Assembly (NCBI RefSeq): GCF_000745235.1
Contig: NZ_JQNL01000001.1
Location: 372,001-436,000 of the forward strand
From: Luteibacter mycovicinus
GTDB taxonomy: Bacteria; Pseudomonadota; Gammaproteobacteria; Xanthomonadales; Rhodanobacteraceae
Length of the DNA stretch: 64,000 nt
Direction of reading: 5' to 3'
The number at the start of each line of letters is the position of its first letter. The first letter of the stretch is position 1. The position numbers and the translations under genes were made by a program. A model generated the notes under the pieces. That model was given only the letters and a program-made list of their open reading frames with translations, did no database searches and was not told the origin of the DNA. Below are positions 15,949 through 43,809 of the stretch, piece after piece.

Positions 15949-16005
15949 TCGCGCGCAGGGCGCGCTCCTACGAAAGCCGCGTGTAGGAGCGCGCCCTGCG
16001 CGCGA
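15949..16005. repeat. REP pair between folP and glmM
   Basis: Perfect 23-bp inverted arms, 15949-15971 and 15983-16005, with an 11-base loop. The core is GTAGGAGCGCGCCCTGCGCG. It lies inside the orn-folP-glmM run and may set different mRNA levels for the two halves. Confidence 0.88.
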
Positions 16006-27156: not shown

Positions 27157-27224
27157 GTGTGCTTTAAGCTGAGGGCTCGGCTTCGCCATCGCGTTTGGCT
27201 TTCCGCGTTCGGGCGGCACGAGCA

Positions 27225-27464
27225 AGAGCCGGCGGGTGCCACCCTCGCGCCCACGCCTGCGGCGACCCCTCAGGGAAAGGCCGCTACCGCGGCCGTATTT
27301 CAATGGCCTACGGCCGGGTCGGGCTCCGACTGGGGGTTTTCGAGTCGGCTGTCCCTGCCTCCCCGAAAACGGCCGGTCATCCGTGACCGGCCCCCTTGCG
27401 GGCCTCTTCCAGTCGGAGCCCTCGCCTGCGGCTACCGGACGCGAGGGTGGCACCCGCCGGCTCT
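27225..27464. repeat. 240-bp complex palindromic element
   Basis: Within the 490-bp non-coding stretch 27102-27594. Outer arms 27225-27249 and 27440-27464 are perfect 25-bp reverse complements (AGAGCCGGCGGGTGCCACCC...). Inside lie a second pair GGCTCCGACTGG / CCAGTCGGAGCC (27322-27333, 27409-27420), a third pair GTTTTCG / CGAAAAC (27336-27342, 27364-27370), and separate hairpins at 27279-27294, 27305-27315 and 27371-27392. The nesting would fold as one branched structure. Reading frames here are Arg/Pro-rich and look non-coding. I see no transposase. It could be a MITE-like element or a structured RNA; the identity is unknown. Beyond it, 27465-27594 holds nothing I recognise. Confidence 0.8.
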
Positions 27465-27594
27465 TTCGGACGGTAAGGCAGCGTGGGGTCGAGCGGCGGT
27501 TCGCTCCGTGACTGGGCCGCTAGCCGAGCCCCTGGGCATCTGTAGCAGTTGAAGGTGCTTGCGCCTTATCGGCTCGCTTCCGACGATGAACTCA

Positions 27595-42139: not shown

Positions 42140-42592
42140 GTGAACATCTGGGTCGACGCCGACGCCTGCCCCGCCGTCATCAAGGACATCCTGTTCCGTG
42201 CCGCCGAGCGCGAGCAGGTCGAGGTCACCCTGGTCGCCAACCAGTGGATCCGCACACCGGCCTCCCGGTTCATCAAGTCGATCCAGGTTCCGGGCGGCTT
42301 CGACGTCGCCGACGACGAGATCGTCCGCCGCGTGCATCCGGGCGACCTCGTGGTGACGCAGGACATTCCGCTGGCGGCTTTCGCGATCGAGAAGGGCGCA
42401 CTGGCGCTGCATCCGCGCGGCGAGATGTACACGAAGGACACAATCGCGGCGCGCCTCTCGATGCGTAACTTCATGGAAGAGCTCCGCGGATCGGGCGTCG
42501 ACACCGGTGGGCCCGCTGCGATGCATCCACGCGATCGGCAGAACTTCGCGAATGAACTCGATAAATGGTTGGCTCGGCGGAAGAAGAGCTGA
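42140..42592 (+). CDS. DUF188 (YaiI/YqxD) family protein
   Basis: A 150-residue protein with the PIN-like DUF188 fold. The signature DADACP at residues 6-11, [16 protein letters not shown] in the centre and [13 protein letters not shown] match the family, whose function is unknown though a nuclease-like site is suspected. Start is GTG 42140, 2 bp after the PhzF-like stop, so the two are one operon. A complex palindrome follows directly. Confidence 0.9.
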
Positions 42593-42614
42593 GGAGCTTT
42601 GCGTTGTGGCACGG

Positions 42615-42931
42615 GTGCCGTTGGGTGCCATTCTCGTCGCTAAGTCCTCCTACGGCCTTCGCCTTCGTGCGGAAGCGCTCCGGGAACGACACCCAACGGC
42701 ACCCTCCAGCCCTTGACGCCGCCGGTCGGAGAGCGTCGAGCACAGCACCGACATGCCAGCATACGGCGGCGTTGCGGGGATGCCCCGAGTGCAACGCACG
42801 CTCGGCTCGGCTCGCCAAAACAACCTGCGGCAGCGCTGGAGGGGAGTCGTCGGCTGCCGTTCCTGGAGCGCTTCCGCACGAAGGCGAAGGCCGTAGGAGG
42901 ACTTAGCGACAGGAACGGCAGCCGACGACTC
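42615..42931. repeat. Nested palindrome: inverted pair of a 45-bp core within divergent stems
   Basis: This fills the 359-bp non-coding gap 42593-42951. Core A (42637-42681) and core B (42865-42909) are exact 45-bp reverse complements. Each core sits in its own stem: A between 42615-42627 and 42690-42702 (GTGCCGTTGGGTG and complement); B between 42844-42864 and 42911-42931 (21-bp perfect). The stem sequences differ between A and B, but each is self-complementary. More nested pairs lie between: CCCTCCAGC (42702-42710) with 42835-42843, and ACGCCGCCG (42716-42724) with 42764-42772. No coding frame is convincing. Identity unknown. Confidence 0.85.
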
Positions 42932-42951
42932 CCTGCCCCAACGCCGAGCCG

Positions 42952-43809
42952 TTAAACCCCAGTGACCTCATCCAGCCGTAAAGTCAGGCACTTGGCGGCG
43001 CCGCCAGACTTCATGAACTCATCCAGCGCCACCTCGACAAGCATGAAACCCGCGCCCTCCAGCCGCGACCGCAGATCCGGCCCCGCACGATTGAGGATCA
43101 CGACCTTGCCGAGGTTCACCGCATTGCAGGCGAAATCGATCGCATCGTGCTCGCTGACCGGAATGCGCAGATGCGGCGCGATATGCTTCTCGATCGACGC
43201 CAGGGACGCCGCATCGAAAGCATCCGGGAAGTACAACGTGTAGCCGCCCGCCAGCGGACAGAAACACGTGTCCAGGTGGTAGAAACGAGGATCCGCGAGC
43301 TTCAGCGGAATGACTTCGATATCCAGACGCGTCGCCAGTTCGGATGCTGCCAAGGGATCGGAGCGATGGCCGTGCCCCATCCACAAACGACGCGACACAC
43401 CGCGGTCGAACAACGCATCACCCGCCCCTTCGAAGAAGACGTCTTCAGCGATATCGACGATGTCGAATCCATGACGTGAGAACCACGCCCGGGCATGCGC
43501 TTCCTCGCCCTGCCGTTCGGCATAGCGGAAGCGGCTCGGTACAAAAGCATTGCCGAACACGAGGCCCGCGTTGGCCGCGAAGCACATATCCGGGAGCCCT
43601 TCCACCGGCGGCTGGAGAGCCACGTCGGCATGGCGCGACACGGTGTCGCGCAGCGCGTCCCACTGGCGGCGCGAGCGCTCGCTGGTGGTGTCATGCACAT
43701 GGTCGGTCATCCACGGATTGATGACGTAGCTGACCTCGAAGAATGTCGGAGCGCACATCAGCACGCGTGGAACCGTGCGCTCGATCGTCGGGGACATCGT
43801 TTCTGCCAT
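42952..43809 (-). CDS. Arginine deiminase/amidinotransferase-fold enzyme (CtlX/DDAH-like)
   Basis: A 285-residue enzyme of the guanidine-group-modifying superfamily. The catalytic triad is visible: His178 and Asp180 in FYHLDTCFCPLAGG and nucleophile Cys274 in SGGAAKCLTLRL near the C-terminus, with PDMCFAANAG and an Asn/Asp substrate region near 75. It resembles the CtlX/dimethylarginine dimethylaminohydrolase branch that hydrolyses or transfers guanidino groups; free arginine deiminase is also possible. ATG 43809 is used; ATG 43797 is an alternative. The start codon lies in one arm of an inverted repeat (43798-43859). It is followed by the palindromic element, with no operon partner. Confidence 0.85.
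   Translation of the reverse strand: MAETMSPTIERTVPRVLMCAPTFFEVSYVINPWMTDHVHDTTSERSRRQWDALRDTVSRHADVALQPPVEGLPDMCFAANAGLVFGNAFVPSRFRYAERQGEEAHARAWFSRHGFDIVDIAEDVFFEGAGDALFDRGVSRRLWMGHGHRSDPLAASELATRLDIEVIPLKLADPRFYHLDTCFCPLAGGYTLYFPDAFDAASLASIEKHIAPHLRIPVSEHDAIDFACNAVNLGKVVILNRAGPDLRSRLEGAGFMLVEVALDEFMKSGGAAKCLTLRLDEVTGV

Follow-up and report, generated by a model that had tools for sequence, protein, structure and literature searches.

A dispersed paired-hairpin repeat between convergent genes of Luteibacter mycovicinus, and its relation to bacterial palindromic repeats

The gap between two convergent genes

The window, by which we mean the whole stretch of 64,000 nucleotides of Luteibacter mycovicinus that was analysed, contains two convergent genes, whose products we take to be a YaiI/UPF0178-like protein (upstream gene) and an arginine deiminase/dimethylargininase-like protein (downstream gene), and the 359 nt that separate their stop codons (42593-42951) are occupied over their whole length by a left and a right hairpin together with their flanks (Table 1). 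The preliminary description of this gap had reported two identical inverted copies of one 45-bp core, each within its own self-complementary stem, and both statements hold: the copies match at 45 of 45 positions (0 expected, 100 shuffles), and the arms are complementary at 100% in the right hairpin and at 88% in the left one. The stem lengths then given, 13 bp for stem A and 21 bp for stem B, have to be corrected, as the arms of both hairpins measure 24 nt. Two of the left-hairpin "mismatches" become G.U pairs when the strand opposite to the core of that description is read, and it is this strand that is called sense here, the folding z-scores being stronger on it (right hairpin -10.4, left hairpin -7.7) than on the non-sense strand (-9.0 and -5.4, respectively). 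The whole gap may also be folded into one large hairpin (z -19.6), so that the two separate hairpins are not the sole fold available to it.

By-eye comparison with other copies identifies the GCCGAGCCG of the right outer flank as an outer box (described below) that has been shortened, and by the same comparison the left outer flank seems to be a truncated version of the outer box region. Scans for promoters and terminators gave no matches, and behind the stems there is neither a T tract nor a terminator-like site. Rfam release 15 gave 0 matches over the whole window, and a relaxed search of the element returned 8 sub-threshold matches, mostly to animal or plant microRNA models, the best of them at 38.8 bits against 168; a known Rfam family was therefore rejected, none matching at threshold.

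Table 1. Features of the paired element and of the sister element in the window
Feature	Position	Strand	Remarks
Outer box GGCTCGGCTTCGCCATCGCG	27174..27193	+	precedes sister element
Sister family B hairpin	27224..27465	sense strand -	about 243 nt, two GGA loops
Upstream gene	42140..42592	+	150 aa, convergent with downstream gene
Left outer flank	42593..42612		begins right behind TGA (42592) of upstream gene
Left hairpin unit, type-2 stem	42613..42704	sense strand -	24-nt arms, 44-nt core
45-bp core, left copy	42637..42681	+	44-nt core is 42637-42680
Spacer between left and right hairpin units	42705..42841		137 nt
Right hairpin unit, type-1 stem	42842..42933	sense strand +	perfect 24-nt arms, core as in left unit
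45-bp core, right copy	42865..42909	-	44-nt core is 42866-42909
Right outer flank	42934..42951		contains GCCGAGCCG, reaches stop codon of downstream gene
Downstream gene	42952..43809	-	285 aa, convergent with upstream gene

Family A, its outer boxes and a sister family

Searched with the core pattern (up to 3 mismatches), the genome gives 27 matches, the two of the window included, and the reversed control gives 0; a covariance model built from these 27 matches (alignment A1), the E-values of which are rough, finds 28 units in sense orientation, together with 25 weaker antisense matches that all coincide with units already counted. The unit of this repeat, which we call family A, is a 92-nt hairpin with 24-nt arms and a 44-nt core. 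Ten pairs of units lie within about 300 nt, the sense strands pointing outward in all ten, and when the units are typed by the top of the stem (19 of type 1, 9 of type 2), nine of the ten close pairs have one of each; the pair in the window is the only one of these nine with identical cores. Of 17 unit groups, 10 are enclosed by convergent genes and 4 by co-directional + genes, the settings of the other 3 being different or unclear, according to a crude gene caller based on codon bias whose calls are doubtful at two sites (830416 and 2407560). A lone unit (743209) has a + gene on either side, both of them opposed to its sense strand, and several copies are located, as judged by eye, behind separate terminator-like T tracts. 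Family A is, then, a dispersed, non-coding repeat with facing pairs of two stem types, found mostly past the 3' ends of genes and often accompanied by the outer box. Elsewhere in the window, a weak match of the model (28.7 bits, 15951-16003) overlaps two facing GTAGGAGC REPs.

Further copies exist in related genomes too, in 10 besides this one: units were found in 11 of 61 relatives (this genome included) and, when 233 genomes from the bacterial family were searched with stricter filters, again in 11, within 2 of 26 genera. The named scan gave 38 stretches, 31 of them in Luteibacter or Pinirhizobacter soli; the remaining 7 belong to metagenome bins of distant groups and are taken for probable chance matches. 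The distribution of family A is patchy, within Luteibacter and Pinirhizobacter. The upstream gene of the window was located at 18 loci in relatives, with the downstream gene also present at 10, within 200 nt at 8 of these, and none of the 18, the 10 with both neighbours included, carries a unit; several relatives have REPs in the corresponding gap, and as the gap sequences of the relatives are unalignable, the insertion point and a target duplication are not readable at this site. The only own unit site with shared neighbours, over about 65 loci of the retrieved relatives, is the acyl-CoA dehydrogenase/ptsI site, where units occur in 3 of 23 genus loci: in this genome as a short unit pair, in G006 as a pair surrounding a gene with an XVIPCD domain, and in G012 as a pair surrounding a duplicated gene, the remaining genomes having different genes or REPs. 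Unit sites are mostly not common to different species.

The 20-nt outer box has 23 copies in the genome with 2 mismatches allowed (reversed control 0), and 22 of them lie outward of a hairpin by 21-34 nt: 12 accompany hairpins of family A, the other 10 those of a second family, B. From many unit ends the full box is absent. Family B is present in 19 of 23 genus genomes, and in this genome 20 copies are near full length, 18 of which form 9 facing pairs, with two stem types in all five of the pairs read. In the window it lies in the stretch 27174-27532, where a strand of 242 nt folds with a z-score of -12.0. Many of its pairs are changed on both sides across species (34 of 78 when 17 units, hand-picked from those retrieved in 7 genomes, are aligned), and all 17 units have GGA in two hairpin loops, the stems of which vary. 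GGA in hairpin loops is the type of site recognized by the RNA-binding proteins CsrA/RsmA; against the rsmX model of Rfam, family B scores a sub-threshold 21 bits (E 0.07, cut-off 56).

As regards the genes found inside such pairs, a 1.56-kb stretch of G002 (L299, 484-2044) has perfect inverted outer boxes at both ends and in its interior a Tlde1-domain protein, with a unit-like hairpin on the left (44.9 bits) and a family-B-like stem on the right, and in G006 (L094, 1761-4993) a family A pair encloses a gene that seems to be broken and has domains of the peptidoglycan-binding and XVIPCD kinds, as well as a 203-aa protein without Pfam hit. RHS-repeat proteins adjoin family A units at L096 (G015) and L099 (G004), and shorter box-bounded elements of G021 (L303-L305, L307), with stems resembling those of A and B, are perhaps deletion forms or further types. 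The wide pair 1035928-1038213 carries a small ORF of 86 aa without significant Pfam match and a secreted protein of 259 aa (304 with the longer start), without Pfam hit, which has 43 uncharacterised relatives. That family A units systematically bracket toxin genes is no more than a lead: at 16 additional unit loci, all in other genomes, the ORFs were judged by eye, and most of the neighbours look ordinary. An autonomous copy was sought between units or boxes; the wide pairs inspected carry other genes, with no transposase recognised.

Pairing, folding strand and conservation

From two copies only, the preliminary description had deduced that the changes in the stems are compensated and that the fold is kept rather than the sequence, and the 27 copies of alignment A1 bear this out. 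In them the paired fraction of the stem cells is 98.1% (shuffles 88.1%), the number of pairs changed on both sides is 14 (shuffles 8.5) and that of double-changed cells is 94 (shuffles 30.3), values which none of 500 shuffles equals, although the counts come from related copies with kinship ignored and are inflated by relatedness; with the partner slid by 1-3 columns as a control, 27-58% is paired. The cross-species set comprises 81 distinct units of several species, drawn from the first 90 rows of alignment A2 (rows 91-132, antisense and a few weak matches, were removed before the pair count), and in this alignment, which was fitted to the covariance model, the 24 stem pairs read in sense give 1717 Watson-Crick pairs, 138 G.U, 19 A.C, 55 others and 15 gaps, G.U outnumbering A.C at 16 stem positions and A.C outnumbering G.U at 3. 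The 27 own units have 53 G.U against 2 A.C on the sense strand. Within the core, one pair changes on both sides across the 81 units (G-C in 62, A-T in 19), and another is G-C in 45, C-G in 29 and G-U in 6.

A bias towards G.U arises from the folding of a single strand, and neither mutation alone nor a cruciform should produce it; with G.U so far in excess of A.C, what is preserved seems to be the fold of one strand, either RNA or ssDNA, rather than a cruciform. In ssDNA, G.T pairs also outdo A.C; as both RNA and ssDNA tolerate G.U(T), the polarity cannot choose between them.

Same-type copies at different sites (27 of the 28 units, unit 585475 being omitted) have an identity of 0.94 in the core and 0.82-0.86 in the stems, and of 0.55-0.57 in the 60-nt flanks, against 0.49 for shuffled flanks. 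The flanks have therefore decayed while the hairpins were kept, which points to selection acting on the resident copies; more broadly, old copies with intact hairpins suggest either such selection or gene conversion of the cores. Gene conversion could preserve the likeness of the cores without selection, and it may have acted on the window pair, whose cores are identical.

Spread, retention and relation to known repeats

The explanation that we prefer, with a probability of roughly 0.5, is that family A is a dispersed paired-hairpin repeat which spread in Luteibacter-like lineages as non-autonomous elements, and whose resident copies owe their retention to a function of the hairpin as RNA. The preliminary description had proposed a structured repeat, a mobile palindrome or an RNA gene, and of these the dispersed repeat is established by the 28 units; that the pairs may be mobile we infer from their patchy, site-specific presence, and with less assurance a role of the resident hairpins at the RNA level may be proposed. 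The pairs would have been moved by some activity not their own. Once they were resident, the read-through transcript of each convergent gene would include the far unit as its sense strand, on which G.U pairs are tolerated, just before entering the opposite gene in antisense; there the far unit could fold and become the target of a binding protein or of a nuclease, and this binding or cutting would end or mark the read-through from both sides. This explanation is favoured by the 10 of 17 groups placed between convergent genes and by the GGA loops of sister family B, and weakened by the orientation of the lone unit 743209 and by the promoter and terminator scans, which gave no match.

A possible, if doubtful, alternative is a mobile element of ssDNA in which the hairpins would mark the ends to be recognised by a nuclease or transposase (cf. 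IS200/IS605, REP), only those copies that fold being multiplied, and it is with the same reserve that the two stem types might be regarded as left and right ends. The facing two-type pairs with outer boxes, the patchy distribution over sites mostly not common to species and a G.T polarity compatible with ssDNA would all be accounted for. However, no candidate enzyme accompanies the units: the REP transposase gene is present in 22 of 23 genus genomes, with or without family A, and its 25 loci (Y1_Tnp) have no outer box and give, with the unit model, one weak match (29.1 bits, L248); moreover, flanks that have decayed next to hairpins 98% paired call for selection after insertion. As to these loci themselves (L036, L247-L270), they represent one REP transposase gene found in most Luteibacter genomes, the REP-tag pattern occurs at 24 of the 25, and the REPs adjoining the gene keep a GT(A/G)GGAGC tag with a stem that varies between species.

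Bacterial palindromic repeats are for the most part interpreted as parasites, in ssDNA form, of enzymes of the RAYT type. Membership of the REP/BIME/REPIN class, with mobilisation by RAYT, would agree with intergenic palindromes in facing mixed pairs and with the REPs that fill the same gap in several relatives, but we consider it improbable: at the foot of the unit, which reads GGG...CCC in the aligned copies, there is no GTAG or CGTC tag (GTAG lies inside the core in only part of the own copies), the RAYT loci are without units, barring the one weak match, and in REPINs (PMC3116915) it is the spacer that varies between conserved arms, while family A does the opposite. Mobilisation by RAYT was rejected, the presence of the transposase being unlinked to that of the units and its loci lacking boxes. 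Very improbable is an ordinary bidirectional intrinsic terminator serving the two genes: strong hairpins between convergent genes would suit it, but it was rejected because the scan found no terminator pattern and no T tract after the stems; moreover, several copies lie behind separate T tracts, as judged by eye, and a conserved 44-nt apex would be superfluous. A local inverted duplication at this site only, foreseen in the preliminary description for the case of a core without further copies and stems without conservation, would explain the identical cores and has practically no probability, being ruled out by the 27 core matches of the genome, with 28 units whose stems covary, and by partners' stems less alike (mean 0.71) than those of same-type units at other sites (0.82), so that the pairs are not local duplications.

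A wider conjecture, which we hold to be rather unlikely, would unite A and B in a single superfamily of facing RNA hairpins with box ends, travelling through Luteibacter genomes, with ends and lower stems in common and the apical domain exchanged; the B copies would serve as a CsrA/RsmA sponge dispersed over the genome, and genes for antibacterial weapons, together with likely immunity genes, would travel in some of the box-ended pairs.

No description of family A was found among the open-licence PMC papers searched with selected terms, and the passages of PMC12306157 consulted name neither Luteibacter nor Rhodanobacter, Dyella or Xanthomonad-. Family A resembles bacterial palindromic repeats, yet it matches none of the families checked. 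MITEs and the ERIC-type palindromic repeats of enterobacteria are non-coding, with TIR-like ends, and lie near gene ends; family A is likewise non-coding and inserted near gene ends, and its outer boxes may be TIR-like, although many unit ends have no full box; no parent transposon was found for it, and no target duplication was seen in gaps that are unalignable between relatives. With REP/BIME sequences and their RAYT it has in common the high copy number of intergenic palindromes, the inverted mixed pairs and the compensated variable stems, and its layout is that of the BIME, alternating intergenic palindromes of two kinds (10 of 10 inverted, 9 of 10 two-type); REP elements are 20-40 bp long with a GTAG or CGTC tag (PMC3733652), whereas family A, at 92 nt, carries no tag, has a 44-nt apex that is invariant and is not linked to RAYT. 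To REPINs and to the R0, R1 and R2 repeats of P. fluorescens, which PMC2718517 gives as hairpins of about 80-110 bp dispersed between genes, it is close in size and location, although the REPIN order of kept arms and varying core is reversed in it. Family B, for its part, shares GGA in hairpin loops with the CsrB/RsmX-type RNAs and differs from them in being dispersed, each unit of about 243 nt having two GGA loops and a single long stem that closes it. Family A inverts the usual conservation, with a fixed apex and a free but paired stem, its G.U polarity reveals the folding strand, no RAYT-type enzyme is attached to it and its sister family, in which the GGA loops occur, is much larger. With it, the old question whether REP-like sequences persist at gene ends as RNA becomes testable.
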